DNA of 64,000 nt, taken from positions 1,674,001-1,738,000 of the forward strand of contig NZ_AP018725.1 of NCBI RefSeq assembly GCF_003967195.1. Direction: 5' to 3'. The stretch is from Sulfuriflexus mobilis. GTDB lineage: Bacteria > Pseudomonadota > Gammaproteobacteria > AKS1. Below the pieces are notes generated by a model. It was not told where the DNA came from. It did not search any database and saw only the letters and a program-made list of their open reading frames with translations. Within the stretch, counting starts at the first letter, position 1, and each line of letters starts with the position of its first letter. The position numbers were made by a program, and so were the translations under genes. Below are positions 36,077 to 55,458 of the stretch, piece by piece.

Positions 36077-36418
36077 CTAGAGATCCAGCAGCACCTTGAG
36101 GGGTTTCCGCATACCGGCGATCTTGCAGGCCTGTTGTCCATAGCCATAAGGGAACAAATTATAAACATGTTTGCGTGTGGCCCTGTCAGCACCGGAGTGT
36201 TCCTTCAGTGACTTCAGCACTTTTCTTAACTCGATCACACAACTGGTATGTTCGTAGTGATCACGAACGATCCTGACTATCTGCCAGCGCTCCTCGTTCA
36301 TCTCCAGCGATTCACCTTCGGCGATCTGTAAGGCAACCTCTTCGTTCCACTGTTCCGGCTCGAGGAGGTAGCCTTCATTGTCGGTATCGATGATCTTGCC
36401 AGCATATTCCAATGTCAT
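36077..36418 (-). CDS. DsrC/TusE-like protein, copy 1
   Basis: The 113-residue protein belongs to the TusE/DsrC/DsvC family: GYLLEPEQWNEEVALQIAEGE near the N-terminus and LFPYGYGQQACKIAGMRKPL near the C-terminus. The penultimate CysA of true DsrC and TusE is absent (the protein ends KVLLDL), leaving only the upstream Cys of ACKIAG and another in TSCVIELRK. It therefore cannot make the DsrC trisulfide chemistry in the standard way. It is nearly identical to the copy at 38810 and follows a remnant of dmsBC, so it is one half of a duplication. ATG 36418 is preferred on ribosome-site spacing. Confidence 0.8.
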   Translation of the reverse strand: MTLEYAGKIIDTDNEGYLLEPEQWNEEVALQIAEGESLEMNEERWQIVRIVRDHYEHTSCVIELRKVLKSLKEHSGADRATRKHVYNLFPYGYGQQACKIAGMRKPLKVLLDL

Positions 36419-36430
36419 CATATTCCCCTG

Positions 36431-36539
36431 TTAGTGCGCGTCGGGTACAACACCGGTCTGTGGCATATTGGCCAGGCCGGTTTCGCGGGCGTGTTCCTGA
36501 AAGCCCTTGTTACGCCAGAAAAAGCTCCCGGCATCGTCG
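36431..36539 (-). pseudogene. 3' remnant of dmsBC (duplicate)
   Basis: On the minus strand the last 35 or so codons read MPGAFFWRNKGFQEHARETG and on to VVPDAH plus stop, matching the end of the intact dmsBC gene at 39165 with one change (R for K). The homology stops at about 36539, where it joins a fragment of rep in the opposite orientation. No start or upstream domain remains. Confidence 0.85.
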
Positions 36540-37028
36540 AATGTCCTGGAACTCATCGAGTGGCTGGACCGCCTCGCCAAGCGCCCCAGCATGAGTGATG
36601 CCACACTCGGTGATCTGGTTGCCCGCCTGACCCTGCTCGACATCCTTGATCGTGACGATGAACAAGAAGGCGACCATGTTCACCTCATGACCCTGCATGC
36701 CGCCAAGGGCCTCGAATTCCCACACGTTTATATGGTCGGCATGGAAGAGGATATCCTGTCCCACCGTGTCAGTATCGAGGAAGGTAATATTGAAGAAGAA
36801 CGTCGTCTCGCCTATGTCGGCATTACCCGCGCCCAGCGCACCCTTACCTTCAGTTATGCCGCACGACGTAAGCGCTTTGGTGAAATGATCGCGTGCGAAC
36901 CGAGTCGTTTCCTCGATGAGCTACCGGACGACGTCATTGAACGTGAGGGACAAAATGAAGACCCGGAGGCCGCCCATGCCGAGGCTGAGGCCACACTGAC
37001 TAGCCTGCGTTCGCTTCCGCAAGACTAA
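36540..37028 (+). pseudogene. 3' fragment of rep (duplicate, residues about 505-667)
   Basis: Reads NVLELIEWLDRLAKRPSMSD through RRLAYVGITRAQRTL to the end of Rep, almost identical to 31597-32087. The Walker A half is missing, so it cannot be a helicase. Differences from rep are mostly synonymous (I count about 12 synonymous and 3 replacement changes), and the last residues differ (SLPQD versus SLLQKN). A TTG at 36507 in the fused dmsBC remnant could start a 173-residue protein, but this is doubtful. Confidence 0.85.
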
Positions 37029-38809: not shown

Positions 38810-39151
38810 TCAAAGGTCGAGTAATACCTTGAGAGGCTTTCGCATGCCGGCAATCTTACAGGCCTGCTGACCATAACCGTAAGGGAAAAGTTGATAAACA
38901 TGCTTGCGCGTGGCCTTATCCGTACCGGATTGCTCTTTCAGTGACTTCAGCACTTTCCTCAGCTCAATCACGCAACTGGTATACTCGTAGTGATCACGAA
39001 CGATCCTGACTATCTGCCAGCGATCCTCTGTCATCTCGAGTGACTCACCTTCAGCAATCTGTAAGGCAACCTCTTCGTTCCATTGTTCCGGCTCAAGAAG
39101 ATAACCTTCATTGTCGGTATCGATGGTCTTGCCTGCATATTCCAATATCAT
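38810..39151 (-). CDS. DsrC/TusE-like protein, copy 2, last gene of the nitrate operon
   Basis: The 113-residue homologue of the protein at 36077 differs at about ten positions (MILEYAGKTIDTDN, TEDRW, KEQSGTDKATRKHVYQLF). It again ends ACKIAGMRKPLKVLLDL without the C-terminal CysA. It starts 13 bp after dmsBC, so it is transcribed with nirB-nirD-nasA-dmsBC. The family normally moves sulfur or senses sulfur state; a link to nitrate reduction is inferred from position only. Confidence 0.85.
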   Translation of the reverse strand: MILEYAGKTIDTDNEGYLLEPEQWNEEVALQIAEGESLEMTEDRWQIVRIVRDHYEYTSCVIELRKVLKSLKEQSGTDKATRKHVYQLFPYGYGQQACKIAGMRKPLKVLLDL

Positions 39152-39164
39152 AATATCTCTCATG

Positions 39165-41024
39165 TTAATGTGCATCCGGTACAACACCGGTCTGTGGCAT
39201 ATTGGCCAGGCCGGTTTCGCGTGCGTGTTCCTGAAAGCCCTTATTCTTCCAGAAGAAGGCGCCCGGCATCGTCGTCGGTATCACCAGCACATAAAATAAT
39301 GCCCTGCCGATCACTGCTGTTATTAGTATGCTGGCGGCTATGAATGTCCAGGCGACCAGACCCGCGACACCGGAAAGCCCGGCAAGGCTGATGCCGGCTA
39401 CCGCCAGCACACTCAGGGCAAGACCGGCATTTCGCAACCGATAGGTGTTGCCGAATGTCGTTGTCTGTTCGTAGTGTGAGGCGGCCCCTTCCCCACCTTG
39501 CTTGTGCATGTCACCCGCTTGACGCCAGAGGCCTGTCGCTTCGATAAGCAGGCCAATCAACATGGGCATGCTCAGGACCTGCAGGAGAGGGACATAATCG
39601 TGGCCGGCGGCCTGTTCCAGTGCGGCAAACACGAGCCCGGCGGCAAGTGGGCCGAGCACCAGCATGCTGCCGTAGAAGCTGCTCAGCACCTGCCAGTGGT
39701 TCCAGAACGGGCGTGCCTGGATGCGGTAGATCTTGTGCATAAAGTACAGTGCCACCGGCCCGGCCACGAGCGCCATCCATCCACTTGCCGTGCGCAGCGC
39801 CTCAACAAAGCCTTCGGGCAACCAGAGCAGACCCGGAAACAGGGTCATCAGGGTATAGGCACCGAGCAGGTTGTAAAATACGGCAATCGCGGCCACCTCG
39901 CGACTCACGGGTGAGTAACGCAGGTTATTAAAGGCACGGTAAAAACGCTGCGGTTTACCCAGATGCATGGTCGACAGAAACAATGCCAGTGTCTCCAGTC
40001 CAAGCAAGGCCAGTAACATAACCGGGAAACCGATCGGGTGTGCCTCGACACTGAGTTGTTGCAGGCCAAACATTGGGCCGAGGAACAGAACCGCAAAGGC
40101 ACCGACCACGGCCTGTGAGATAAGCGTGAAGATCACGAGTGGGTCTTCACGTGAGCGTAGCTTGCGCAGGTTCCACTCACGGCCCTTGCCGGTATCATGT
40201 ACCTTGGTATGAAACTCGCCCCTGCCCTGCTCATCGCGCTCATAACGGATCGGCATGCTGTCGGTGCGGGTCATCTCGCGTGGCAGACTTTTTTTCTGCT
40301 GGAAACGGATATTCGGCTGCGTGATCGCCGGCGTTGGGAAACCAGGGATGGTTGTCGACAGCTGATCCCGGTTTTCCGGACGGGTTTCGATAATACCGAA
40401 GTCCAGTGCACCGGCAAGACAGGCCGAGGCACAGGCGGGCTTCAGACCCACCTCAAGCCGGTCGACACACATGTTGCACTTTTCCACATGGCCCTTGACC
40501 GGATCCAGTTGTGGTGCGTTGTAGGGACAGACCCAGGTGCAATAGCCACAGCCAAAACAGATATCCGGGTCCTGGAGCACGGCGCCGTACTCGGCGAATT
40601 TGGTATAGGCACGGGTTGGGCAACCCTTCAGGCAGACCGGGTCATCGCAGTGGTTACAGGCCATGGAGATGTTCATGCGGTGATAATCCGGCCAGGTGCC
40701 ACCTTCTACGTACCCAACAGAACGGAAGGCCACGTGCGGTGACAGGTCGTTCTTTTCACTGCAGGCCGATTCACAGGCATGGCAGGCGATGCAATGATCC
40801 GCATTAAAGTAAAAACCGTGCTGCTTGTAGCGATTCGGGTTATCACTGACACCGCCATCGCCATTAATGTTCAGGCTCTTGCCTGCCAGTTCACTATCTG
40901 CCGTGACCAGGGTGATGGCTTTGCCGTAACGATTTTTTTGTGGTGCCTCAACCTGCGGGACGCGGGCATAATCCGGTTCATCATCACGGACCTTGAAGGC
41001 GCGGGTTTGGGTTTTATCCAGCAT
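39165..41024 (-). CDS. Fused DmsB/DmsC-type electron-transfer and membrane-anchor subunit
   Basis: The 619-residue fusion has an N-terminal half with four [4Fe-4S] binding clusters of Cys: CIACHACESAC, CNHCDDPVCLKGC, CFGCGYCTWVCP and CNMCVDRLEVGLKPACASAC (about 75-210). The C-terminal half (about 300-600) has roughly eight transmembrane helices of the DmsC/NrfD-like anchor type. It lies 18 bp after nasA, so it most likely passes electrons from the quinol pool to the nitrate reductase. The last 35 codons are duplicated at 36431-36539. Confidence 0.88.
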   Translation of the reverse strand: MLDKTQTRAFKVRDDEPDYARVPQVEAPQKNRYGKAITLVTADSELAGKSLNINGDGGVSDNPNRYKQHGFYFNADHCIACHACESACSEKNDLSPHVAFRSVGYVEGGTWPDYHRMNISMACNHCDDPVCLKGCPTRAYTKFAEYGAVLQDPDICFGCGYCTWVCPYNAPQLDPVKGHVEKCNMCVDRLEVGLKPACASACLAGALDFGIIETRPENRDQLSTTIPGFPTPAITQPNIRFQQKKSLPREMTRTDSMPIRYERDEQGRGEFHTKVHDTGKGREWNLRKLRSREDPLVIFTLISQAVVGAFAVLFLGPMFGLQQLSVEAHPIGFPVMLLALLGLETLALFLSTMHLGKPQRFYRAFNNLRYSPVSREVAAIAVFYNLLGAYTLMTLFPGLLWLPEGFVEALRTASGWMALVAGPVALYFMHKIYRIQARPFWNHWQVLSSFYGSMLVLGPLAAGLVFAALEQAAGHDYVPLLQVLSMPMLIGLLIEATGLWRQAGDMHKQGGEGAASHYEQTTTFGNTYRLRNAGLALSVLAVAGISLAGLSGVAGLVAWTFIAASILITAVIGRALFYVLVIPTTMPGAFFWKNKGFQEHARETGLANMPQTGVVPDAH

Positions 41025-41042: not shown

Positions 41043-43223
41043 TTAGTACGTTCTAGCCGCATGATTGCGCACGGCGGCGGCAGTCTGATCCGCTACCGAT
41101 TCAATCTTCACGGCACTTTGTTTGAAGGCCGGCTGGCGCGAATGCGGATCCAGCAGACCCAGGGTCAGGCGGTTGACACATTCATGGAAATGAAACGGGA
41201 TAAAGATCATGTTTGGTGCCACGCGCTGGGTGAGCTGTACCATAACCACGGCATCCCCTCGACGTGAGATCAGACGTGCATATTTACCATGTTCGATACC
41301 CAACTCACGTGCGGCATCCGGGTTCATTTCCATATATGGGGTCGGACTGAACTTGTTCAGGTTACCAACCTTGCCCGTGCGGGTGCGGGTATGGAAATGT
41401 TCAACGACACGACCGGTATTCAGCCAGAATGGATACTCTTCGTCAGGACGTTCATTGTTATCGATAAATGGCAAAGGGATCAGCTTGGCCTTGCCATCCT
41501 CGAACTGGAACCTGCCATCACTATACAGACGAGCCGTACCGCCCTCTGCCCCTTCCGTGCAGGGCCACTGGATTCCACGTTGCTGCTCGAGCTTTTCATA
41601 ACTCAGCCCGGAGTAATCCAGCATCCTGCCCCTGGAGAGCTCACGCAATTCGTCAAAGACCTCCTCACTGGTTTCCGGGAAGCGGATTTTTCTGCCTTGC
41701 GCAAAGCGCTTTGCCATTTGGTTGAATATCCACAGGTCTGATTTGGACTCTTCATGCGGTGGCATGACGTTGCGGATCAGGTTCACACGACGCTCGGTAT
41801 TGGTAAAACAGCCCTCTTTCTCCGCCCACACGGCGGCCGGGAAATAAACGTGACTATATTCGTTGGTTTCCACATCGGCGTAGGCATCCTGTACAACCAG
41901 GAATTCGAGTTTCTCCAGGGTCTTGCGGATTCGCGCGGTATTGGTCATTGAGGTCATCGGGTTGGTCGCGATCAACCACAGGCCCTTGATCTGACCCGTC
42001 TCAATCGCCGGGAAGATATCGGTCTGGAACAGACCGCGTTGTTTGGGGAAAAATTCCGGATCAATGCCCCAGTAATTGGCGATATCCTCGCGGTCTTTTT
42101 CCTTTTCCAGCGCCCTGTAACCCGGCAGGCCGGAACAGGATGACCACTCACGTGTACCCATGGCATTGCACTGGCCGGTAATGGAAAGGCTCGTACCACC
42201 CGGCTTGCCAATATTACCGGTGATCAGGTTCAGGTTATTGATACCCACCACACCATCCGAGCCGTGCGTACTCTGATTAATCCCCATGGTCCAGATCGTC
42301 ATCGCCGCACCGGCCTTTGCATAGAGGCGCGCCACATTACGGATGGTGTCTTCATCGATACCACAAATACGGGAAGCGGTTACCGGGTCATACTCAGCTA
42401 CGAGTTTCTTAAATTCCTCATTGCCATTGGTATGTGCATCGATATAGGCGCGGTCTTCAAGGCCCTCATCAAGAATGACATGCGCCAGTGCATTCAATAA
42501 CACAACATCCGTACCAGGCGTGACCGGCAGATGCATATCGGCCATTTGCGAAAACATGGTCACGCGCGGGTCAACCACGATGATCGGGAACTTGCGTTTT
42601 TCCAGTGCCTGGCGCAGGCGCCAGAAGATGATCGGGTGCTGTTCCGGCAGGTTGGAGCCAATCGCCAGCAGGCATTCGGTATGTTCGAAATCATCGTAAC
42701 AACCCGGCGGGCCATCCGAACCAAAGGAACGCTTGTAACCGGACACGGCCGAGGCCATGCACAAGGTCGTGTTGCCGTCATAGTTGTTGGTACCGAGCAC
42801 ACCCCGGGACAACTTGCCCAGGGTGTAAAACTCCTCGGTCATGATCTGCCCGGTGGAGACCACGGCAAAGGCATCGCGGCCATAGGTCGACTGGATACGC
42901 TCGATCTCCGAGGCGGTCTTGTCAAGGGACCTGTCCCAACTGACCTCCTTGAAATCGTGATGGATCTGGTCACGCATGAGTGGCACACGGCCACGGTTTG
43001 GCGTATAGAACAACTCATGCTCAAAGATGCCCTTCAGGCATAACTTGCCGCGGTTGACATCGGCACCTGCAACACCGCGACTACTGACGGCCTTGCCGTC
43101 CTTGTCCAGACCGACTTCGATGGAGCAGCCCGTAGAGCAATAGCCACAGGTGGTGTATTTCCAGTCGACGACACCCTTGTCGGCGATCCTGATGGCATTC
43201 TTTTTTGCACGACCAAACAACAT
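41043..43223 (-). CDS. nasA: Assimilatory nitrate reductase catalytic subunit (molybdopterin)
   Basis: Reduces nitrate to nitrite in the cytoplasm. The 726-residue protein has the N-terminal [4Fe-4S] motif CGYCSTGCSIEV then NRGKLCLKG. It has bis-MGD regions CMASAVSGYKRSFGSDGPPG and TMGINQSTHGSD, then GQCNAMGTREWSSCSGLPG, and the C-terminal NTGRVVEHFHTRTRTGKV pocket. It lacks the C-terminal [2Fe-2S]/BFD extension of Klebsiella NasA (about 870 residues), so it needs an external donor, consistent with the fused subunit next to it. There are 16 bp between the nirD stop and its start. Confidence 0.93.
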   Translation of the reverse strand: MLFGRAKKNAIRIADKGVVDWKYTTCGYCSTGCSIEVGLDKDGKAVSSRGVAGADVNRGKLCLKGIFEHELFYTPNRGRVPLMRDQIHHDFKEVSWDRSLDKTASEIERIQSTYGRDAFAVVSTGQIMTEEFYTLGKLSRGVLGTNNYDGNTTLCMASAVSGYKRSFGSDGPPGCYDDFEHTECLLAIGSNLPEQHPIIFWRLRQALEKRKFPIIVVDPRVTMFSQMADMHLPVTPGTDVVLLNALAHVILDEGLEDRAYIDAHTNGNEEFKKLVAEYDPVTASRICGIDEDTIRNVARLYAKAGAAMTIWTMGINQSTHGSDGVVGINNLNLITGNIGKPGGTSLSITGQCNAMGTREWSSCSGLPGYRALEKEKDREDIANYWGIDPEFFPKQRGLFQTDIFPAIETGQIKGLWLIATNPMTSMTNTARIRKTLEKLEFLVVQDAYADVETNEYSHVYFPAAVWAEKEGCFTNTERRVNLIRNVMPPHEESKSDLWIFNQMAKRFAQGRKIRFPETSEEVFDELRELSRGRMLDYSGLSYEKLEQQRGIQWPCTEGAEGGTARLYSDGRFQFEDGKAKLIPLPFIDNNERPDEEYPFWLNTGRVVEHFHTRTRTGKVGNLNKFSPTPYMEMNPDAARELGIEHGKYARLISRRGDAVVMVQLTQRVAPNMIFIPFHFHECVNRLTLGLLDPHSRQPAFKQSAVKIESVADQTAAAVRNHAARTY

Positions 43224-43239: not shown

Positions 43240-43575
43240 TTAATTCGGACAACCTTCATTCGGCGTCAGGGACAAAAATACGGCATCCCCCTCCAGCTTG
43301 ACCGGGTAGTAAGCCGCACAACCCTCATCCGGGGCCACGGCCAGACCGGAATCGAGATTGATCTTCCAGTCATGCAGCGGGCAGGCCACGCGTTTACCGT
43401 GTACGATACCCTGTGATAAGGGCCCGCCCTTGTGCGGACACTTGTCACGCAGGGCAAATACCTCGTCGTCTGCGGTGCGGAATACCGCAATATCACCCTG
43501 CTTTGACTCAACCACGCGTGCGCCGAGTCTCGGGATGTCGCTGAGGGTGCCAATTTCTATCCAGTTTTCACTCAT
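43240..43575 (-). CDS. nirD: Nitrite reductase small subunit NirD (Rieske type)
   Basis: The 111-residue protein MSENWIEIGTLSDIPRLGAR has a Rieske-type domain with CPHKGGPLSQG and CPLHDWKINLDSG, i.e. both Cys-x-His and Cys-x2-His ligand pairs, so it may carry a [2Fe-2S] cluster, unlike the cluster-less E. coli NirD. ATG 43575 is preferred over the TTG at 43587. It lies 45 bp after nirB. Confidence 0.93.
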   Translation of the reverse strand: MSENWIEIGTLSDIPRLGARVVESKQGDIAVFRTADDEVFALRDKCPHKGGPLSQGIVHGKRVACPLHDWKINLDSGLAVAPDEGCAAYYPVKLEGDAVFLSLTPNEGCPN

Positions 43576-43620
43576 TGTCTTGTCCAATCTGTTTTTCTGG
43601 CCTGTTGTTCCAGAAGATAT

Positions 43621-46059
43621 TTAGGCATTGAGCTGCTTGAGCGGCTCGAATTCATGTTTTTCTGCACCCTGGGCACGTTGCTGCCACGGGTCATCCTGGG
43701 CGAACTTCTGCGAGAAGTGGAAACGCTCAGCCAGTGCCACGCGGTTATCCGCGTCATCGACGATCTGTTCCTTAACATGGGCCAGGCCGACACGTTCTAT
43801 CCACGGTGCGGTACGTTCGAGGTAATGCGCCTGTTCACGATAGACCTGCATAAAGGCCGCGGCGTACTCGAGCACCTCTTCCTCTGTACTGACTGCACAA
43901 AGGAAATCTGTGGCGCGGACCTTGATGCCGCCGTTACCGCCGACATGCAGTTCGTAACCGGAATCGACACAGACCACACCAAAGTCCTTAATGGTCGCCT
44001 CGGCACAATTACGCGGACAACCGGAGGCGGCCATCTTGTACTTATGCGGGGTCCAGGAACCCCAGGTCATCTTTTCCAGCTCGATACCGAGCTGGGTCGA
44101 GTCCTGGGTACCAAAACGACACCACTCCTTGCCAACACAGGTCTTCACGGTACGCAGGGCCTTGCCGTAGGCATGCCCCGAGACCATGCCAGCCTGGTTC
44201 AGGTCATTCCAGATCACCGGCAGTTCGTGTTTTTTCAGGCCATACAGCGCGATGCGCTGACCGCCGGTAACATGCACGGTCTTGACGTTAAACTTTTCTG
44301 CCACATCGGCGATTGCACGCAACTCTTCCGGCGTTGTGCCGCCCCCCCACATACGCGGAATCACGGAATACGTCGCATCCTTCTGGATATTGGCGTGGGC
44401 GCGTTCGTTGATAAAACGTGACTGGCCGTCATCGCTGCCAGCGTCCGGCCAGGCACACATGACGTAATAGTTCAGGGCCGGGCGACATTTGCTGCAACCA
44501 TCCGGGGTCTTCCATTCCATGAAGTCCATTACGCTGCGGATAGACTTGAGTTCTTTTTCCTTGATCGTGGCACGAATTTCATCATGCGTATGTTCGGTAC
44601 AGGCACACAGGGGTTTCAGGTGCGGGGCTACCGAGTAGTCACCACCAACAGTATGCGCGAGCAGGCTCTCGACGAGACCCGTACAGGAGCCACAGGAACT
44701 CGAAGCCTTGGTGTGCGCACGCACGTCTTCAAGCGTAAAGAGTTTCTTGTCGGTAATGGCCTTGACGATGTCACCCTTGCAAACACCGTTACAACCACAG
44801 ATTTCGGCACTGTCGGCCATCATGGCAATACGGTTCTCATCACCGTGACCCGAATCACCAAGATGGGCCTGACCGAAGAGGATATTTTCACGGAAGTCGC
44901 TGATATCCGTCGCATCGCGCATCAGGTCGAAATACCAGCTGCCATCGATAGTATCGCCATACATGACCGCGCCCTTGAGCTTGTTGTCCTGCACGACCAG
45001 CTTACGGTAGACACCCCGCGAGGCATCCTGGAAGACCAGTTCCTCGGTATCTTCACCGCCGGTAAAATCCCCGGCCGAGAACAGGTCGATGCCGGTGACC
45101 TTGAGCTTGGTTGAGGTCATTGAACCCTCATAACGACCAATCCCCATCTTCGCCAGGTGATTGGCGCAGACCTTACCCATTTCAAACAGGGGCGCGACCA
45201 GACCATAGACCTGGCCACGGTGTTGCACACATTCACCGACGGCATAAACCTTCGGGTCAAAGGTCTGCATCGTGTCATTGACGACAATACCGCGTTCACA
45301 GTGAATGCCGACCTTTTCGGCCAGAGCTATATTGGGTCGAATCCCCACGGCCATGACGACCAGCTCGGCGGGTATCTCACGGCCGTCTTCAAGCAGCACT
45401 GATTGCACGTGGTCCTGACCCTTGATCTCTTTGGTCGAGGCCTGCATAAGGATTTCCAGACCGCGGTCTTCCAGCGACTTGCGCAGCATCTTACCGGCGA
45501 CGCTATCAAGCTGGCGTTCCATCAGGGTATCCATGAGGTGCAGCACAGTGACCTTCATGCCCTGCTGCATCAAACCGTTGGCCGCCTCAAGACCCAGCAG
45601 GCCACCACCGATGACCACCGCATGCTGATGTTGCTTGGCGGCCTCGAGCATCTTGTCGACATCATGGATATCACGGAAGCCGATGACTCCCTCGAGCTCA
45701 TGTCCGGGGCATGGGATAATAAATGGAGTAGAACCGGTAGCCATCAGCAGGCGATCGTAGCTTGCCTTGGTACCGTCTGAGGCGATCACCTTCTGCGCAG
45801 AGCGGTCGATATTGATAACCTCTTTGCCTTTGTGCAGGGTGATATGGTTATCGATATACCACTGTTCATCATTGAGCATGATCTCATCAATGGTCTTCTC
45901 GCCGGCCAACACCGGTGAGAGCATAATGCGATTGTAGTTGCCGTATGGCTCTGCGCCAAAGACTGTAATGTCATACAGGTCAGGGGCGACTTTAAGGAGT
46001 TCTTCGAGGGTTCGTACACCGGCCATGCCGTTGCCGATAAGGACAAGTTTTTCTTTCAT
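43621..46059 (-). CDS. nirB: NADH-dependent nitrite reductase large subunit NirB
   Basis: Siroheme enzyme reducing nitrite to ammonium. The 812-residue protein starts KEKLVLIGNGMAGVRTLEEL with the FAD motif. A second dinucleotide motif VVIGGGLLGLEAANGL follows, then a BFD-like [2Fe-2S] region (CGCNGVCKGDIV, SSCGSCTGLVESLL) and siroheme/[4Fe-4S] ligands in KTCVGKEWCRFG and ASGCPRNCAEA near residues 640-690. ATG 46059 fits the family N-terminus; a start at 46071 would add four residues. It is the first gene of the nirB-nirD-nasA-dmsBC-dsrC operon. Confidence 0.95.
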   Translation of the reverse strand: MKEKLVLIGNGMAGVRTLEELLKVAPDLYDITVFGAEPYGNYNRIMLSPVLAGEKTIDEIMLNDEQWYIDNHITLHKGKEVINIDRSAQKVIASDGTKASYDRLLMATGSTPFIIPCPGHELEGVIGFRDIHDVDKMLEAAKQHQHAVVIGGGLLGLEAANGLMQQGMKVTVLHLMDTLMERQLDSVAGKMLRKSLEDRGLEILMQASTKEIKGQDHVQSVLLEDGREIPAELVVMAVGIRPNIALAEKVGIHCERGIVVNDTMQTFDPKVYAVGECVQHRGQVYGLVAPLFEMGKVCANHLAKMGIGRYEGSMTSTKLKVTGIDLFSAGDFTGGEDTEELVFQDASRGVYRKLVVQDNKLKGAVMYGDTIDGSWYFDLMRDATDISDFRENILFGQAHLGDSGHGDENRIAMMADSAEICGCNGVCKGDIVKAITDKKLFTLEDVRAHTKASSSCGSCTGLVESLLAHTVGGDYSVAPHLKPLCACTEHTHDEIRATIKEKELKSIRSVMDFMEWKTPDGCSKCRPALNYYVMCAWPDAGSDDGQSRFINERAHANIQKDATYSVIPRMWGGGTTPEELRAIADVAEKFNVKTVHVTGGQRIALYGLKKHELPVIWNDLNQAGMVSGHAYGKALRTVKTCVGKEWCRFGTQDSTQLGIELEKMTWGSWTPHKYKMAASGCPRNCAEATIKDFGVVCVDSGYELHVGGNGGIKVRATDFLCAVSTEEEVLEYAAAFMQVYREQAHYLERTAPWIERVGLAHVKEQIVDDADNRVALAERFHFSQKFAQDDPWQQRAQGAEKHEFEPLKQLNA

Positions 46060-46125
46060 TGGGCTTCCCATGTTGCACTGACTCGCCGTTGAGCCGTGTC
46101 CTGCTAAATTAGCTAATCCTGATAG

Positions 46126-46487: not shown

Positions 46488-46527
46488 ACAGCATGATTAA
46501 ATGACCCATCGAAGGGAGTTAGAAGTA

Positions 46528-48006
46528 ATGAGTACCGACACCAGTAAGCTCAACCTGCTATCGTTCAGCGGCAACACAAAGATCTTGCACCTGACCTGGG
46601 TGGCCTTTTTTATCAGTTTCTTTGTCTGGTTTAACCACGCACCACTACTGGCGTATATACGTGACGAATTTGGGCTTAGCCCACAGCAAGTCAAAACCCT
46701 GCTCATCCTCAACGTCGCGCTGACTATTCCCGCAAGAATCATCGTCGGCATGCTGGTAGACAAGCTCGGTCCGAGGATCATGTACTCTGCCCTGCTCTCA
46801 ATATCCAGCCTGCTTTGTTTCGGTTTTGCCTTCGCCGACAGCTTTGAGCAGATGGCCATCATGCGCTTCCTGCTCGGCTTTGTCGGCGCCGGCTTCGTGG
46901 TCGGTATTCGTATGATTGCAGAGTGGTTCCCGGCCAAGCAACTGGGCGTGGCGGAAGGTATTTATGGTGGTTGGGGTAACTTTGGGTCTGCCGCCGCGGC
47001 ATTGAGCCTACCGACACTGGCTCTGATATTTGGTGGTGAAGAAAATGGCTGGCGTTACGCCATTGCCATGACCGGTGTCATCGCCCTGGTTTATGCCTTT
47101 ATTTATTACTTCTCAGTCAGTAACACCCCAAAGGGGTCTACCTACTTCAAGCCAAAGAAGACGGGTGCCATGGAAGTGAGTACGCCCGGAGACTTTTTCC
47201 TTTACATGCTGATGAACATTCCTATGTTTGCTGCACTGGCCCTGTTGACATGGAAACTGGGACCGACCAACCTGAACCTGCTCGCCGCCAGTATTACCTA
47301 CACGCTCTATGGTCTGCTGGTGCTGCTATATATCTACCAAACCATGCACATCTACCGCATCAATAAACATGTGTTTGAAAAGGCCGTGCCTGAGATTGAC
47401 CGTTATAAGTTCAAGCAGGTCGCCGTACTAGACCTCTCTTACATGGTGACATTTGGTTCGGAGCTGGCCGTGGTCTCCATGCTGCCCCTGTTCTTCCTCG
47501 ATACCTTTGACCTGGGTATGGTTGAGGCTGGCCTGCTCGCCTCCGGTTATGCCTTCATGAACCTCGTCGCCAGACCCGGTGGCGGCCTGATCAGTGACAA
47601 GTTCGGCCGTCGCAAGACCCTGTTGATCCTGCTGGCTGGATTGGCCATTGGCTACTATATGATGAGCCAGATAGATTCCAGCTGGAATTTATTCCTGGCC
47701 GTGGTCATTACCATGGTCTGCTCATTCTTTGTCCAATCGGGTGAAGGTGCCGTATTTGCTATGGTGCCACTGGTGAAACGTCGCATGACAGGCCAGGTCG
47801 CCGGCATGGCGGGCGCCTACGGCAGTGTAGGGGCCGTGAGCTTTCTGACCATCCTCTCCTTTGTTTCACCACAAATATTCTTCCTGGTGATCGCTGCATC
47901 CGCTGTGGTGGTTCTGGCCATCGTCTTCTTGTTCCTCGAAGAACCACGTGGCGAGATGGCCGAGGTGTTGCCGGATGGCACTGTGCAGATGATTGAAGTA
48001 GAGTAA
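46528..48006 (+). CDS. narK: NarK/NasA-type MFS nitrate/nitrite transporter
   Basis: The 492-residue protein has about 12 transmembrane helices. It has the nitrate-porter signatures [20 protein letters not shown] with the conserved Arg and [20 protein letters not shown] in the second half, and [12 protein letters not shown] in helix 1. ATG 46528 is chosen because GGGAG lies upstream; a longer frame from 46501 has none. It is followed by the phosphatase-kinase gene on the same strand. Confidence 0.92.
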
Positions 48007-48069
48007 GCCTCATCAGCTTGTCATTAAGGGGCCAGCGTCGCTTCACAGCGACGTTGGCTATTGATATAT

Positions 48070-49782
48070 ATGATGCAATCCCAACCTGGCATCCAGTCCG
48101 GGCAATGCAGTGAAGCCGGCGTCAAGGCGATTAATGATGATGCCTGCGACATCCGCATTCCCGATGAACCCCTGCTCAGCACCAAGGGCATTGTTGCACT
48201 CATCGCCGATGGCGTAAGCCGCAGCGAGGCAGGACGTGAGGCCAGTCATGCCTGTGTACGTGGCTTTCTCAGTGATTACTATAGCACCCCGGATTCCTGG
48301 TCGGTGAAAAATGCCGGGCAAAAGATTATCGGCTCACTCAATACCTGGTTGTACAGCCAGGCGCAGAGAAAGTACGACTCTGACCGTGCCATGCTGACCA
48401 CGCTCAGTAGCCTGGTCATAAAATCAGGCACTGCACACATCTTCCATGTAGGCGATACACGTATCTACCGTCTGCGTGATAATGATCTCGAATGCCTGAC
48501 CCAGGACCACCGCGTCTGGGGCTCCGGGGAAAAGACCTACCTTGGCCGGGCCATGGGGGCTGATAGCCACATTGATATCGATTACCGCAGTCTGCCCGTC
48601 GAGGTGGGTGACCTGTACCTGCTCGCCACAGATGGCATTTATGAATTCATCAGCGATAGCGAACTAAAAAGATACTTGCGTGAGGGTCGAGAGATGCCGG
48701 AGGCCACCGCACGGAAAATCGTCACCCGTGCCCTGGAGGGGGGAAGTAATGACAATGCCACCTGCCAGATACTCCGTGTTGACCACCTGCCAGAGCTCGA
48801 TGAAGAGGCATTCTACCGGCAGCTAACCGAATTGCCCTTCCCGCCATTCCTTGAGGCCGGCATGGTTCTGGACGGTTACCGTATTACGCGAGAGATCCAT
48901 GCCAGTTCGCGCACCCAGGTGTATGCCGCGCAGGATGTGGCAACGGGACAACGTGTCATCCTGAAGACCCCCTCGGTTAATTACGAAGACGACCCTGCCT
49001 ACATTGAACAGTTTCTTCACGAGGAATGGATAGGCCGACGCATTAATAACAGTCACGTATTGAAGGTGATCGTACCGACTCGCCGGCGGCGTTTTCTCTA
49101 CTATGTCACTGAGTATATAGAGGGTCAGACACTGCGTGAATGGATGCAGGAGAACACCCGCCCGTCCTATATTGCCGTACGTAATATTCTCGAGCAGATC
49201 GCCGGCGGCTTACGCGCATTTCATAAACTTGAAATGCTGCACCGCGATCTAAAGCCGGAAAATATCATGTTCGATGATAGTGGCCGCCTCATCATTATTG
49301 ACTTTGGCTCGACCCGGGTCGCCGGCATCGATGAAAAACATGCGCCATTCGAACGTGACAACATACTCGGCACGCTGGATTATGCCGCACCGGAATTCTT
49401 TGAGGGTTATGCGGGCAGCACCTATTCCGATATCTATTCGCTTGGTGTCATCGCCTATGAAATGCTGACCGGTCACCTGCCCTACAAACGCGCCCTCACT
49501 GCTAAAAGGCTGTCACAGGCCCGGTATACACCGGTCAAGCACTATACGCCCGAGGTACCCGCCTGGGTGGATGCCGCCATACACAAGGCCGTCAACCTGA
49601 AACCGGAAAAACGCTATACCAGACTGTCCGAGTTCATTCACGACCTGGGCACCGCCAATCCGAATTTCATCAATAAAGAACCTGTGCCGCTGATGCAGCG
49701 CAATCCACTCGCCTTCTGGAAAACATTCGCCCTGCTATTGCTATTCACCAACCTGGCATTAATTATATATATTTTCAAATAA
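48070..49782 (+). CDS. Bifunctional PP2C phosphatase / Ser-Thr kinase, membrane-anchored
   Basis: The 570-residue fusion has an N-terminal PP2C-type phosphatase (LIADGVSRSEAGREAS, AHIFHVGDTRIYRLR, LYLLATDGIYEF, GSNDNATCQIL, about 1-240). A Hanks-type kinase (about 260-530) follows, with the catalytic Lys in RVILKTP, HRDLKPENIM, IDFGSTR, and LDYAAPEFFEG. One C-terminal helix (FALLLLFTNLALIIYIFK) anchors it. The glycine-rich loop (REIHASSRTQVY) is degenerate. Similar fusions recur beside nitrate transporter genes, suggesting control of uptake or reduction. ATG 48070 is preferred over TTG 48061; 48073 is possible. Confidence 0.85.
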   Translation: MMQSQPGIQSGQCSEAGVKAINDDACDIRIPDEPLLSTKGIVALIADGVSRSEAGREASHACVRGFLSDYYSTPDSWSVKNAGQKIIGSLNTWLYSQAQRKYDSDRAMLTTLSSLVIKSGTAHIFHVGDTRIYRLRDNDLECLTQDHRVWGSGEKTYLGRAMGADSHIDIDYRSLPVEVGDLYLLATDGIYEFISDSELKRYLREGREMPEATARKIVTRALEGGSNDNATCQILRVDHLPELDEEAFYRQLTELPFPPFLEAGMVLDGYRITREIHASSRTQVYAAQDVATGQRVILKTPSVNYEDDPAYIEQFLHEEWIGRRINNSHVLKVIVPTRRRRFLYYVTEYIEGQTLREWMQENTRPSYIAVRNILEQIAGGLRAFHKLEMLHRDLKPENIMFDDSGRLIIIDFGSTRVAGIDEKHAPFERDNILGTLDYAAPEFFEGYAGSTYSDIYSLGVIAYEMLTGHLPYKRALTAKRLSQARYTPVKHYTPEVPAWVDAAIHKAVNLKPEKRYTRLSEFIHDLGTANPNFINKEPVPLMQRNPLAFWKTFALLLLFTNLALIIYIFK

Positions 49783-49943: not shown

Positions 49944-50816
49944 TCAGGCCGCATCCTCCTGTGAGTAAGCGACTGTCTCCTTCTCCTCTTTTTCATTTTC
50001 CCCGGTATCAACTGAAGCGGATACCTGCTGAGCCGGGTTATGCTGGCGGTCATAAAGGAACTTCAGCACCTGGGCACGATAGTGGTTGTACTGCGGGTCA
50101 TCGGCCAACTGCAAACGGTCTCTGGGCCTGTCCAGCTCGATCTTCAGAACCTCGCCTACTGTTGCCTCCGGACCGTTGGTCATCATGACGATACTATCAG
50201 ATAACAACACAGCCTCATCGACGTCATGCGTGATCATAATCACAGTATTGCCGAGTTTGGCATTGATCTCCATGATAGAATCCTGCATATGCGCACGTGT
50301 CAGCGCATCGAGTGCCCCCAGCGGCTCATCCAGCAACAGGACCTCGGGTTCCATTGCCAGTGCCCGTGCAATACCGACACGCTGTTTCATGCCTCCGGAT
50401 ATCTCCGAGGGGCGCTTGTGTAGGGCGTGTTCCATATGCACGAGTTCAAGGTTGTGCTTAATCCATTCATCGGCCTCGGCCTTTGTCTTCTTGCCCTTGA
50501 ATATAGAATTCACGGCCAATGCAACATTTTCATAGGCTGTCAGCCATGGCAACAGAGAATGGTTTTGGAAAACCACAGCCCGGTCTGGTCCGGGCTCGTT
50601 GACCTCTCTGCCATTCAGGATCACTCCGCCACGACTGGCCCGATAAAGACCGGCGACAATATTCAGGACTGTCGACTTGCCACAGCCCGAGTGACCAATG
50701 ATGGAAACAAATTCGCCTTTATTGATCTTCAGGTTGACATTCTTCAGCGCTGTAAAGACACCACCCGGTACGGGAAAATCCATACTTACATCTGAAATTA
50801 CTAAATGTTCACTCAT
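49944..50816 (-). CDS. nrtD: Nitrate/nitrite ABC transporter ATP-binding protein
   Basis: The 290-residue ABC ATPase has Walker A GHSGCGKS at about 40-47, the signature EISGGMKQRVGIARAL, Walker B EVLLLDEPLGALD and switch His ITHDVDEAV, all typical of the NrtD/SsuB/TauB class. A Gln/Glu-rich tail ends YSQEDAA. Its ATG at 50816 is supported by GGAG upstream. Last gene of the nrtABD operon. Confidence 0.92.
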   Translation of the reverse strand: MSEHLVISDVSMDFPVPGGVFTALKNVNLKINKGEFVSIIGHSGCGKSTVLNIVAGLYRASRGGVILNGREVNEPGPDRAVVFQNHSLLPWLTAYENVALAVNSIFKGKKTKAEADEWIKHNLELVHMEHALHKRPSEISGGMKQRVGIARALAMEPEVLLLDEPLGALDALTRAHMQDSIMEINAKLGNTVIMITHDVDEAVLLSDSIVMMTNGPEATVGEVLKIELDRPRDRLQLADDPQYNHYRAQVLKFLYDRQHNPAQQVSASVDTGENEKEEKETVAYSQEDAA

Positions 50817-50831
50817 TGCCACATTCTCCAC

Positions 50832-51851
50832 TTATCGTAACTCAAGGCTCTTGTCCCAGCTAACCGACTTTTGCAGCATCAGCATAAGCTTATCGAGCAT
50901 AAAACCAATTACGCCAATAACAAACACGGCAACCATGATCCGTGCCAGGGAATTAGAACTACCATTCTGAAATTCATCCCAGACAAACTTTCCAAGCCCC
51001 GGGTTTTGCGCCAGCATTTCTGCCGCGATCAACACCATCCAGCCAATACCCAGAGACACGCGCAGGCCGGCAAACATCATCGGCACTGAGGCTGGCAATA
51101 CAATTTTGACCACTTTGGTCCACCAGCCAAGTCTTAATACCCGACCCACATTGAGAAGGTCCTTATCAATAGATGTTACACCGACTGCTGTATTGATGAT
51201 CGTAGGCCAGATACAGCAAAGCGTTACAGTAATCGCTGAGGTCAGGTATGACTTGGAAAACATCGGGTCGTCACTGACATACACCGCGCTGACGATTATG
51301 GTCACAATCGGCAACCACGCCAGAGGGGACACCGGCTTGAATATCTGAATAAGCGGATTTATCGCCCTGTATAACGTGATGCTAATCCCGCAGGCCACAC
51401 CTATAGGAATAGCAAATAGCGAGGCAATAATGAATCCACTCGCCACGGTATAAATACTGGTAAAGACCTGGTCAAAGAATGTTGGCTTTCCCGTATAGTC
51501 ACGTATCTTAATCTTTGCATCCGGATTTTTTTCAAGCTTCTTCGCGTTACGCGCATCCTGCCTGAGGTAAAAAGCCTCAGCCTTGTTGCGCTCTGTCACA
51601 TGCTCATCAACAAGAACACGCATTTGTTCCCACACCTGAATCGGCCCAGGCACCACACCAAGCGAGGTCTGGATCTGTGAGGCAGTAAGCCCCCACATTA
51701 ATAGAAAGACAATAAAGGCTATACCCGGAACAATGGCCCCTTGAAGATACGCCATGGACTTTTCCATTATGCGCATATTGCCAAGTGACTGTTGCAGGCT
51801 GGCGAAGAGAGAGAGTTCACTTGCGGATCTTTTTAGTGTCTGTGTTGTCAT
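50832..51851 (-). CDS. nrtB: Nitrate ABC transporter permease
   Basis: The 339-residue integral membrane protein has about six helices and the ABC permease loop (INTAVGVTSIDKDLLNVGRVL). VVKIVLPASVPMMFAGLRVSLGIGWMVLIAAEM near the C-terminus is diagnostic of NrtB. An unusually long periplasmic segment after the first helix (residues about 65-125, rich in Lys and Asp) precedes the permease core. It follows nrtA by 65 bp. Confidence 0.93.
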   Translation of the reverse strand: MTTQTLKRSASELSLFASLQQSLGNMRIMEKSMAYLQGAIVPGIAFIVFLLMWGLTASQIQTSLGVVPGPIQVWEQMRVLVDEHVTERNKAEAFYLRQDARNAKKLEKNPDAKIKIRDYTGKPTFFDQVFTSIYTVASGFIIASLFAIPIGVACGISITLYRAINPLIQIFKPVSPLAWLPIVTIIVSAVYVSDDPMFSKSYLTSAITVTLCCIWPTIINTAVGVTSIDKDLLNVGRVLRLGWWTKVVKIVLPASVPMMFAGLRVSLGIGWMVLIAAEMLAQNPGLGKFVWDEFQNGSSNSLARIMVAVFVIGVIGFMLDKLMLMLQKSVSWDKSLELR

Positions 51852-51916: not shown

Positions 51917-53323
51917 TTATGGCTTGTCAGCCCCCTTTAAACCAATTGAAAACTTCTCAAGGTAGGCATTGGGCTTGCTGCCGTCATAGACAATATTGTC
52001 GATAAAGTGCTTCTGTGGTGCCTTGAAGCCGGATTCTTTAACAAAATCCGGAAACTCATCCGCCTTCATTTTGTCTTCGGCAATCAGTTCCTTTGCAGCC
52101 ACGGCATAAATGTCTGGACGATAAACCTTCCTGGCAATATCCATGTACCAATTGTCAGATTTCTTCTCGGAAATCTGACCCCAGCGACGCATCTGGGTCA
52201 GGTACCAGATGGCATCCGAGTAGTAGGGATAGGTCGCGTTGTGACGGAAAAAGACATTGAAGTCCGGCACCTCACGCTTGTCGCCCTTCTCATACTCAAA
52301 GGTCCCGGTCATGCTGTTGGCAATGACATCGTAATCGGCACCAACGTACTGGCTTTTCGACAGGATCTTCACCGCCTCGGGACGATTCTTGTTGTTATTT
52401 TCATCCAGCCACTTGGCAGCACGGATCATGGCCTTTAACACACGGATGTGCGTATTCGGATTTTTTTCGGCCCAGGTCTTGCTGACACCAAAGACCTTTT
52501 CCGGGTTATCCTTCCAGATTTCATAGTCCGTGACAACCGGTACACCAATACCTTTGAAGACGGCTTGCTGGTTCCAGGGCTCACCTACGCAATAGCCATC
52601 GATGGTCCCCGCCTCCATGGTTGACGGCATCTGCGGCGGCGGGGTGACGGACAACAGTGCATCGGCCTTGATCTGACCGCTGATGTCTCCCTTTGCCGGG
52701 GCATAATAGCCCGGGTGTATGCCCCCAGCCGCAAGCCAGTAGCGTAGCTCATAGTTATGTGTGGATACCGGGAAGACCATGCCCATCTTGAAGGGCTTGC
52801 CGGCTTGTTTGTATTCCTCAATGACGGGTTTAAGCGCGTCGGCTTTAATCGGGTGTACCGGTTTGCCATCCTTGTGCGGGATGTGCTTTTTCATCTTTCC
52901 CCAGACGTCATTGGAAACGGTAATGGCATTACCATTTAGGTCCATGCTGAAGGCGGTAATGATATCGGCCTTGGTACCAAAGCCGATGGTGGCACCCAGT
53001 GGCTGTCCTGCCAGCATATGCGCCCCGTCCAGCTCACCATCGATAACACGATCAAGCAGCACCTTCCAGTTAGCCTGCGCCTCGAGGGTCACATAGAGTC
53101 CCTCATCTTCAAAGTATCCCTTCTCATAGGCAATGGCCAGCGGTGCCATATCGGTCAGTTTAATAAAACCGAATTTCAATTCCTCTTTTTCCGGCTCACC
53201 GACGGCGGCAACGGCCTGTGGTAACAGGCCTGCCGATGTCATGGAAAGGGAAAATGCCGTACCGATGAATAACTGCTTGAGGAAACCTCGTCGTGATGGG
53301 CGTAAGGCTGTTAACAACTTCAT
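51917..53323 (-). CDS. nrtA: Nitrate-binding protein NrtA
   Basis: Periplasmic solute-binding protein of about 468 residues. The N-terminus [20 protein letters not shown] carries a twin-arginine signal (SRRGFLK). The mature part has [37 protein letters not shown] and the nitrate-binding type SYCVG/WN motif. The ATG at 53323 has GGGAG at correct spacing; a longer frame to 53350 would include the terminator. It is the first gene of nrtA-nrtB-nrtD. Confidence 0.93.
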
Positions 53324-53348
53324 AAATCCGCTCCCGCGTTGGATATGC

Positions 53349-53395
53349 AAAAAAAATGGCGCCCGGACAAGGCTTTCACCCTGTTGCAGACACCA
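53349..53395 (-). terminator. Intrinsic terminator in the nrtA leader
   Basis: On the minus strand TGGTGTCTG (53395-53387) pairs with CGGGCGCCA (53365-53357), 9 bp including three wobbles, with an inner ACAGG/CCTTGT hairpin. T8 follows at 53356-53349. It lies between promoter and nrtA, so it must be overcome for expression. Confidence 0.8.
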
Positions 53396-53599: not shown

Positions 53600-53616
53600 T
53601 GCACCGATATAGTGCT
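53600..53616. promoter_or_regulatory. NtrC-binding site upstream of nrtA
   Basis: On the minus strand AGCACTATATCGGTGCA is nearly identical to the well-known NtrC dyad of glnA (TGCACTATATTGGTGCA). It lies about 120 bp upstream of the sigma-54 promoter and overlaps the nasT stop codon. An adjacent GGTGC-N5-GCACC half-site pair extends the region. Confidence 0.7.
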
Positions 53617-54223
53617 ATTGCAAGAGTGATGAAATATCGAGGATCTGTTTGGCAATATCAGCGATACGGACATTTTTATCCATGGCCATCTTACGTATTA
53701 ACTTATAGGCCGTATCCTCATCACAGTGTTTTTGCTTCATCACCACGCCTTTTGCCCGATCAATATCCTTGCGGTCACCGAGTGCACACCTGGCCTCGTT
53801 CAATTCCTTTTTAAGACGCTGGCCTTCCTGAAATCGGGCTATCGCCAGGTCAATAATTGGCCTGATACGATGCCGATGGAAACCATCGACCACATAGGCG
53901 CTTACGCCCGACTTGACTACGTCGGCGATGACATCCTCACTACTTTCTTCGACAAACATAATAATCGGTACTGGCCTGTTCTTGTTTACTGCCGATACGG
54001 ATTCCAGCAGACTTTCATCTGGGATACTTATGTCGACCACTATCATGCCCGGCTGATAATCCCGCGCATGATAATAGATATCTGATTTGCGATTTAACTG
54101 CCGAATATCCCGATAGCCCAGCTCAGACATGACCTCGATAAGGTCATGTGAATCGCCGGAATCATCCGTAATCAAGAGCACTTTCTCCGTCATCGCTAAT
54201 ACAGCGTTGTTATCACTACTCAT
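53615..54223 (-). CDS. nasT: ANTAR-domain antiterminator NasT
   Basis: RNA-binding regulator of about 202 residues. An N-terminal receiver domain (VLLITDDSGDSHDLIEVMSE, with Asp in GMIVVDISIPDESLLE) is followed by a C-terminal ANTAR domain (DRAKGVVMKQKHCDEDTAYKLIRKMAMDKN). It lies just upstream of nrtA on the same strand, whose leader has ANTAR-type hairpins. A NasS nitrate-sensing partner is not seen beside it; NrtA-like proteins elsewhere may serve. The start among ATG 54223, ATG 54193 and TTG 54250 is uncertain. Confidence 0.88.
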   Translation of the reverse strand: MSSDNNAVLAMTEKVLLITDDSGDSHDLIEVMSELGYRDIRQLNRKSDIYYHARDYQPGMIVVDISIPDESLLESVSAVNKNRPVPIIMFVEESSEDVIADVVKSGVSAYVVDGFHRHRIRPIIDLAIARFQEGQRLKKELNEARCALGDRKDIDRAKGVVMKQKHCDEDTAYKLIRKMAMDKNVRIADIAKQILDISSLLQ

Positions 54224-54246
54224 CTCGGTAAATTTTAACTTTGTAC

Positions 54247-55458
54247 TCAAGGCTTAACATCTGAGCGCGACTTGCCGATCGCGATCACCCCATTAGGCGT
54301 TATTTTGAACTGTTTGCCATCCTCACTGGCAGAAAAACCGATTTTCGTTGCCGCCGCGATCACGACATCCTTATCGATAATACAGTTGCGTATATGTGCG
54401 CCATCACCCACTTTCACCCCATCGAACAGAATGCTGTCTTCAACAACGGCCTCATCGCCGATATGCACATTAGAAAACAAGATCGACTTCTGCACACTAC
54501 CCCCGGCAATCACGGTGCCTGACGAGATAATCGAGTTTATTGAGATACCTTCATTGCCTAACACACCCGGGACAGTCCTTGCCGGCGGGTACTGTGGCTG
54601 GTGGGTACGAATCGGCCAGTCCCGCTGATATAAATCAATAGGAGGAACCGGCTTCAACAAATCCATATTGGCTTCGTAGAAATCATCCAGGTCAGCGATA
54701 TTCCGCCAGTAACCATCCTGGCTCACCCTGCCCTCTGAGGCACCAAACTCATAAGCATAGACCCGGTGGCTGTCAATCAGACCTGAAATCACATCTGTCG
54801 CCAGCCCATGGGAGGATTGTGCCTGCTCATGGTCCTTGCTGAGCGCCTCGACCAGGAGATCCTTTGAGAAGATATAAATACCCAGTGAGGAAAAAGTCTT
54901 TTTATCCACATCATCTGGTGCTTGTTGCAAACATGCTCGGACACGCTGTTCATCATCCACCTGTAGTGTTAAACAGCCCGTCGCGCACATAGCGGCTGAA
55001 TCTACACAGGCCATGGTCACATCGGCGTTGTTTTTCAAATGCTGTTGTAACAACACGGCGTAGTCCATTCTATATATATTGTCCCCGGAGAGGACGATCA
55101 CATATTTTGCCGGGTTTCGTTCCAGTAGATAAAGATTCTGGTAAATGGCATCCGCCGTGCCGGCATACCAGCCGCTGCCGGTCCGCATCTGCGGGGGTAC
55201 GGCCGTAATGTATTCACCCAGTTCCGGGTTATAAATCGACCAGGCATCACGCAGGTGTTTTTGCAGAGAATGCGACTTGTACTGGGTCAATACCAGTGCA
55301 CGCCGCAGACCGGAATGCAGACAATTAGACAAGGGGAAGTCGATAATACGGTATTTGCCACCAAACGGCACCGCCGCCTTGGTACGCTCATCCGTTAAGG
55401 GAGACAGGCTCTCACCCGCCCCGCCGGCGAGGATAATGGCCAGGGTTTCTTCAATCAT
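54247..55458 (-). CDS. glgC: Glucose-1-phosphate adenylyltransferase (GlgC-like)
   Basis: Makes ADP-glucose for glycogen. The 403-residue protein has the nucleotidyltransferase signature AIILAGGAGESLSPLTDERTKAAVPFGGKYRIIDF at the N-terminus, WYAGTADAIYQNL, VLSGDNIYRMDY and a left-handed beta-helix with repeated GDEAVVEDSIL-type turns at the C-terminus. The usual GGxGxRLxPLT motif is GAGESLSPLT here, so the conserved Arg is replaced by Glu. The stop lies next to nasT; nasT begins 24 bp after it or less. Confidence 0.85.
   Translation of the reverse strand: MIEETLAIILAGGAGESLSPLTDERTKAAVPFGGKYRIIDFPLSNCLHSGLRRALVLTQYKSHSLQKHLRDAWSIYNPELGEYITAVPPQMRTGSGWYAGTADAIYQNLYLLERNPAKYVIVLSGDNIYRMDYAVLLQQHLKNNADVTMACVDSAAMCATGCLTLQVDDEQRVRACLQQAPDDVDKKTFSSLGIYIFSKDLLVEALSKDHEQAQSSHGLATDVISGLIDSHRVYAYEFGASEGRVSQDGYWRNIADLDDFYEANMDLLKPVPPIDLYQRDWPIRTHQPQYPPARTVPGVLGNEGISINSIISSGTVIAGGSVQKSILFSNVHIGDEAVVEDSILFDGVKVGDGAHIRNCIIDKDVVIAAATKIGFSASEDGKQFKITPNGVIAIGKSRSDVKP

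Follow-up and report, generated by a model that had tools for sequence, protein, structure and literature searches.

What would a protein that joins a phosphatase to a kinase be doing directly behind the gene of a nitrate transporter, and on which of its neighbors would it act? The window analysed here, a 64,000-nucleotide stretch of the Sulfuriflexus mobilis genome, holds such an arrangement, for which a preliminary description had proposed reversible control of the transporter or of the nitrate reductase NasA. In bacteria, the rapid regulation of nitrate and nitrite uptake that has been described involves mainly PII-type proteins.

The fusion gene and its nitrate locus

The gene is embedded among genes for the uptake and reduction of nitrate and nitrite:

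41043..43223, minus strand: NasA/NasC-like molybdopterin oxidoreductase, a probable assimilatory nitrate reductase, scoring below NCBIfam cut-offs (PF00384; NF047855, 543.8 bits against 1100)
43240..43587, minus strand: nirD, nitrite reductase small subunit (TIGR02378, 95.3 bits)
43621..46071, minus strand: nirB, nitrite reductase large subunit (TIGR02374, 941.1 bits)
46501..48006, plus strand: NarK-family MFS nitrate/nitrite transporter, the proposed target; likely start ATG 46528 (TIGR00886, 342.2 bits, cut-off 311.7)
48007..48069, plus strand: narK-kinase gap of 63 bp with a 13-pair hairpin and no U-run (folding)
48070..49782, plus strand: PP2C phosphatase–Hanks-type kinase fusion with a predicted C-terminal membrane helix, 570 aa without internal stops (translation, Pfam, structure model)
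48181..48708, plus strand: PP2C domain, residues 38-213 by Pfam, structural matches covering 5-238 (PF13672; PppA 6jkv, tPphA 5d2u, PstP 1txo)
48910..49620, plus strand: kinase domain, residues 281-517 by Pfam (PF00069; PknB 5u94; conservation)
49705..49776, plus strand: predicted C-terminal membrane helix, residues 546-569, with a conserved [E/Q]RNPLxFW motif at the helix start (hydrophobicity, model, conservation)
49944..50831, minus strand: nrtC-like nitrate ABC transporter ATPase (TIGR01184, 345.7 bits)
50832..51851, minus strand: nrtB-like ABC permease, below the NCBIfam cut-off (TIGR01183, 156.6 bits against 209.05; PF00528)
51917..53350, minus strand: NMT1-like periplasmic binding protein, NrtA-like (PF13379, 337.8 bits)

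The fusion gene, for which a TTG at 48061 is a possible alternative start, follows narK on the same strand. The gap between them folds into a hairpin of -25.9 kcal/mol (z -5.5 against mononucleotide shuffles). By the same measure, z falls below -2 in 36 of the 75 distinct gaps between narK and the kinase gene, and some of these hairpins are terminator-like (L184, L197). The output of the kinase may lie below that of the transporter or be separate from it, and the cotranscription named in the preliminary description is only a possibility. Some narK-kinase gaps are without any hairpin, and the gap hairpins, considered as a conserved attenuator, are kept as an observation only.

Several other genes surround this locus. 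The NasA-like gene is followed by a protein that carries 4Fe-4S ferredoxin and DmsC-type membrane anchor domains in one chain (39165-41024, minus strand), a pairing kept in relatives (L009, 74%; L017, 58%), and this partner suggests that the assimilatory nitrate reductase is quinol-linked rather than soluble. On the other side, the NrtA-like gene is separated from glgC by an ANTAR response regulator (NasT-like; 53615-54250, minus strand). Two very similar DsrC-like proteins (36077-36421 and 38810-39187, both minus strand) flank a PAS histidine kinase and a stand-alone protein of 173 aa that matches the UvrD helicase C-terminal domain only (36507-37028, plus strand); a DsrC-like gene likewise precedes the kinase-phosphatase homologue in locus L107.

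Within the fusion, residues 38-213 match PP2C_2 (44.4 bits, cut-off 24) and residues 281-517 match Pkinase (135.6 bits, cut-off 31.7). The structure model (30 sequences; mean pLDDT 88.0; pTM 0.77) contains both domains and one C-terminal helix at 546-569, where a hydrophobic stretch spans residues 547-570, and only one residue of the chain remains beyond this helix. Structure searches matched the PP2C half to PppA (6jkv, Z 30.6), tPphA (5d2u, Z 30.5) and PstP (1txo, Z 29.4), and the kinase half to PknB (5u94, Z 29.1). The structural matches were single-domain structures only, with no solved PP2C-kinase fusion among them, which does not show that none exists. In an alignment of 128 rows (127 homologues and the window protein), the C-terminal hydrophobic stretch is present in 126, the two exceptions ending at or near a contig end, and the juxtamembrane motif is kept, with W550 in 127 rows and P546 in 124. 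The architecture given in the preliminary description, a PP2C with intact Asp motifs, a Hanks kinase with HRD, DFG and APE, a predicted C-terminal anchor and a position after narK, is thereby borne out.

Intact active sites and a conserved loop variant

The PP2C half holds N22/D24, D47-G48, D129, D188-G189 and D228-N229, and is assigned to the PP2C (PPM) phosphatases by its fold and its metal-binding residues (N/D, DG, GD, DG, DN). The kinase half holds K299, E318, H391-R392-D393, N398, D411-F-G and A-P-E442, the catalytic Lys, Glu, HxD, Asn, DFG and APE of a Hanks-type Ser/Thr kinase. Across the 128 rows, K299, G413 and E442 are kept in all, E318, D393, N398 and D411 in 127 each, D47 and D129 in 127, and D188 and D228 in 126. 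The presence of catalytic residues in 125-128 of 128 rows indicates conservation far beyond chance, and kinase activity is predicted.

The glycine-rich loop GxGxxG is not found in the fusion, which is filed as a variant, with the superfamily set by the fold and the other motifs. Just before the Pfam kinase match, residues 277-282 read HASSRT, so that positions 277, 279 and 282 are H, S and T without a glycine, and the loop is degenerate as had been described. The same replacement is widespread: H occurs at 277 in 100 of the 128 rows, S at 279 in 102 (glycine in 14), and T (69) or S (54) at 282 in 123. Combinations differ by linkage: H-S-T is found in 53 of the 74 rows linked to NarK, and among the 27 rows linked to transporters of the formate/nitrite type (FNT), 15 have H-S-S. 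Judged from the aligned rows, the altered loop (H-A-S-x-R) is a conserved family trait and not decay. With the loop conserved and the catalytic residues all intact, the earlier suggestion that a weak P-loop makes for a slow or regulated kinase is unsupported; a conserved variant is a better reading of the loop than a mark of slow catalysis. A rival reading would have the kinase half be a pseudokinase, or very slow, and the protein be mainly a membrane PP2C. The lack of glycine at the three loop positions would agree with this, as would the HRD arginine, which is present in the window protein and is Q (HQD) in 105 of 128 rows, but the retention of Lys, Glu, catalytic Asp, Asn and the DFG-Asp in 127-128 rows, together with the conservation of the altered loop itself, renders it very improbable.

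Association with narK across genomes

A first pattern scan of named genomes recovered 78 loci; because it depends on exact matches to short peptides, it favors near relatives. The close relatives (L007-L061) belong nearly all to the Gammaproteobacteria, many of them to the Methylococcales, and most have narK directly upstream; the neighborhood listing does not include 23 further loci (L062-L084), almost all of which match distantly and in the kinase only. In a sample of 276 genomes spread over the class, a homologue (E <= 1e-60) was found in 101, about a third, giving 115 rows. Co-occurrence with narK in other genomes had been set as a check on the original proposal, and it is pronounced: narK (E <= 1e-60) occurs in 79 of these genomes, 76 of which also carry the homologue (Fisher p 9e-42, relatedness ignored), mostly directly downstream. 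Of the three other narK genomes, G106 shows a fragment of the kinase where a contig ends; the remaining two, G188 and G274, come from one genus and indicate that narK can be kept without the fusion gene.

In the class sample, 99 rows have 43% identity or more; 67 of them are beside NarK, 21 beside an FNT transporter and 11 beside neither, and 66 of the 67 rows within 4 kb of narK lie downstream on the same strand. The remaining 16 rows (30-37% identity) are beside neither at the thresholds used, and a more sensitive look places 11 of them in nas loci. A phylum sample of 299 genomes gave 93 with a homologue at E <= 1e-50; five of these already belonged to the first sample and were set aside, and 80 of the remaining 88 were analysed, yielding 97 rows, with 43 beside NarK, 33 beside FNT and 21 beside neither (relatedness ignored). 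Of the rows beside neither transporter (27 of 115 in the class sample and 21 of 97 in the phylum sample), several sit where a contig ends or within a nas locus, and several are truly elsewhere (e.g., L124-L126). Two individual loci should be noted. In a genome of the same genus (G115), one kinase-phosphatase gene stands between two narK genes, one per strand (L136, 5134-9891). A 33% relative outside any nitrate locus seen (L119, 7643-9403) has lost PP2C motif 2 (DG) and has HQA in place of HRD, and is a probable pseudoenzyme of the PP2C-kinase fusion family.

A sister copy beside FNT transporters

A paralogue in the S. mobilis genome, 51% identical to the window fusion, follows an FNT transporter (PF01226, 222.4 bits) and a cyanase, the three genes lying in a row (L005, 9079-12261, minus strand), and no NirB or NasA match was found within the 20-kb stretch that holds the paralogue. 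Cyanase recurs beside the FNT-linked copies of L128, L129 and L131-L134. The orientation is again regular, 19 of the 21 FNT-adjacent close rows in the class sample being on the same strand and downstream of the FNT gene. By comparison of the rows, ten class-sample genomes have a copy of each kind, one linked to NarK and the other to FNT, and in the phylum sample the same holds for 11 of 11 genomes with two linked copies. Elsewhere in the S. mobilis genome, a separate PP2C-like stretch and a Hanks kinase lie side by side (L003 and L004), the kinase being ~27% identical to the fusion.

In a quick tree of 127 rows (LG+G4, root untested; L058 and L059, partial or broken, left out), the 27 FNT-linked rows and one unlinked row form a single clade (SH-aLRT 99) nested among the NarK-linked rows. 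Just outside this clade are two rows (L104, L105) that have the remnant of a narK gene where the contig ends, and several long branches occur in the outer 30-37% group. Because the FNT-linked clade falls inside the NarK-linked rows, the simplest history would be that the partner changed once, the MFS carrier NarK giving way to the unrelated FNT channel.

Which neighbor is the likely target

Linkage is a sign of shared function or regulation, and the identity of a substrate is beyond its reach. Of the 48 loci flanked on either side by 5 kb or more, and with NirB, NirD and NasA counted within 5.5 kb, 16 have a transporter without an enzyme and 3 an enzyme without a transporter, with both in 18 and neither in 11. 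Together with the FNT-linked paralogue, which lies apart from genes for nitrate reduction, this count favors the transporter as the controlled protein. Thus, of the two targets first proposed, the transporter is the one retained and NasA appears less likely.

The same observations bear on a reading in which the substrates are the cytosolic reductases (NasA, NirBD) or a NasT-type regulator, and adjacency to the transporter reflects one shared regulon. NirB, NirD and NasA are common neighbors too, and the copies at L113, L115 and L117 stand beside NirBD-NasA without a close NarK. However, the imbalance of 16 to 3 loci and the FNT-linked copy of S. mobilis, without NirB or NasA nearby, make this reading rather unlikely. 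A transceptor-like role, in which the protein senses nitrate or nitrite flux via its partner transporter and phosphorylates a global nitrogen target (PII or a nitrogen regulator), is more doubtful still. That two-copy genomes have a copy for each type of transporter would fit a read-out of each, and the L107 relative has two nearby ammonium-transporter-like genes (read by eye), but the chain has no receptor domain by Pfam and no conserved further neighbor points to such a target.

If the transporter is the substrate, a Ser/Thr at NarK position 23 is a candidate site only, and the first to be sought by mass spectrometry. This position lies in the N-terminus (SF[S/T]GK) just before helix 1 and is presumably cytosolic by the NarK topology. 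As a phosphosite that marks linkage it was rejected: the association was strong at first (Ser/Thr in 52 of 56 linked NarKs without a gap there and in 0 of 10 unlinked ones), weaker in a larger sample (86 of 114 against 1 of 14), and not significant among relatedness-independent pairs (7 comparisons, median p ~0.6). The NarK loop TPKGSTYF was likewise promising in the first sample and less so in the larger one; several unlinked NarKs that are closely related retain it too, and it need not be a phosphosite. For the FNT proteins, a comparison by eye of linked and near unlinked members found no separating site.

Relationship to known systems

By gene order, the fusion is placed like PpkB of Pseudomonas sp. 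UW4 and PA1782, which we take to lie in the nas locus of P. aeruginosa: narK ends 63 bp upstream, and NirBD and the NasA-like gene adjoin. The 30-37% relatives in nas loci are probably the PpkB/PA1782 branch, though this is suggestive only. The UW4 cluster for nitrate assimilation runs nasST-nasA-ppkB-nasDEC-cobA; the gene of a NarK-family transporter is followed directly by the Ser/Thr kinase gene, and the authors cite Arabidopsis and Hansenula, where kinases act on nitrate transporters (PMC3596284). Both the arrangement and the idea of transporter phosphorylation are already in print for Pseudomonas (nasA-ppkB, 2013). Similarly, narT of P. pseudoalcaligenes is followed by a protein kinase gene (PMC5333837), and PA1782 is named beside PpkA and Stk1 as the third Ser/Thr kinase of P. 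aeruginosa (PMC8560001). The passages cited here for PpkB and PA1782 (PMC3596284, PMC8560001) mention neither a PP2C half nor an FNT-linked sister. In the openly licensed PMC papers searched, we found no tested function of a nas-linked kinase, no reversible Ser/Thr phosphorylation of a bacterial nitrate transporter, and neither the FNT-linked sister copy nor the partner switch. The family itself is known, and the partner switch is the new element.

Known single enzymes resemble each half of the protein. PppA, tPphA and PstP (PPM) share the fold and the metal-binding Asp residues (Z 29-31) but are stand-alone domains, whereas the fusion has its PP2C ahead of a kinase with a membrane helix. Hanks kinases of the PknB/StkP type share the kinase fold (StkP matches with E 4e-32) and a single membrane helix after the kinase; the fusion differs in having no PASTA and no extracellular domain, in carrying a PP2C on the chain, and in its H-A-S-x-R-[S/T] loop. 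A PASTA kinase proper (StkP/PknB/Stk1) was rejected on an NF033483 score of 183.3 bits against a cut-off of 450 and on a chain that stops at the membrane helix. Matches of the kinase domain to defence kinases (PADLOC PD-T4-6 and others) reflect generic kinase similarity, with no defence neighbors, and the PppA/PpkA regulatory pair of type VI secretion was dismissed, as the neighbors are nitrate assimilation genes and include no type VI secretion cluster.

Plant NRT2.1 and NarK belong to the same superfamily. NRT2.1 is phosphorylated at Ser28 and Ser501, and the PP2C CEPH dephosphorylates Ser501, by which uptake is activated (PMC10944928). The likeness is that of a PP2C acting on a nitrate transporter, and the comparison is convergent only, with a eukaryote in which kinase and phosphatase are separate.

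A proposed switch for nitrate and nitrite entry

The reading preferred here, to which we give an even chance, is a dedicated two-way switch for nitrate and nitrite entry with the transporter as its substrate. The C-terminal helix would anchor the enzyme in the inner membrane next to NarK, and the two catalytic domains would face the cytoplasm. The kinase would phosphorylate the transporter, or a bound partner protein, on a cytosolic Ser/Thr; the phosphate would be taken off by the PP2C domain of the same chain, the balance between the two being set by some signal. Uptake could then be matched to nitrogen status faster than via transcription. That the phosphorylated state is the inactive one is a guess by analogy with Ser501 of plant NRT2.1.

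More tentatively, it is possible that these proteins constitute a membrane kinase-phosphatase family dedicated to nitrogen-oxyanion transporters, with one copy per transporter, one move from NarK to FNT and a glycine-free ATP loop, and form an independently evolved counterpart of the control of plant NRT2.1 by kinase and PP2C. The gene is found in about a third of the sampled class, beside its possible target and duplicated for a second transporter type, and an otherwise uncharacterised kinase family thereby poses a directly testable question. Should this proposal hold, many bacteria would possess one switch per entry route.
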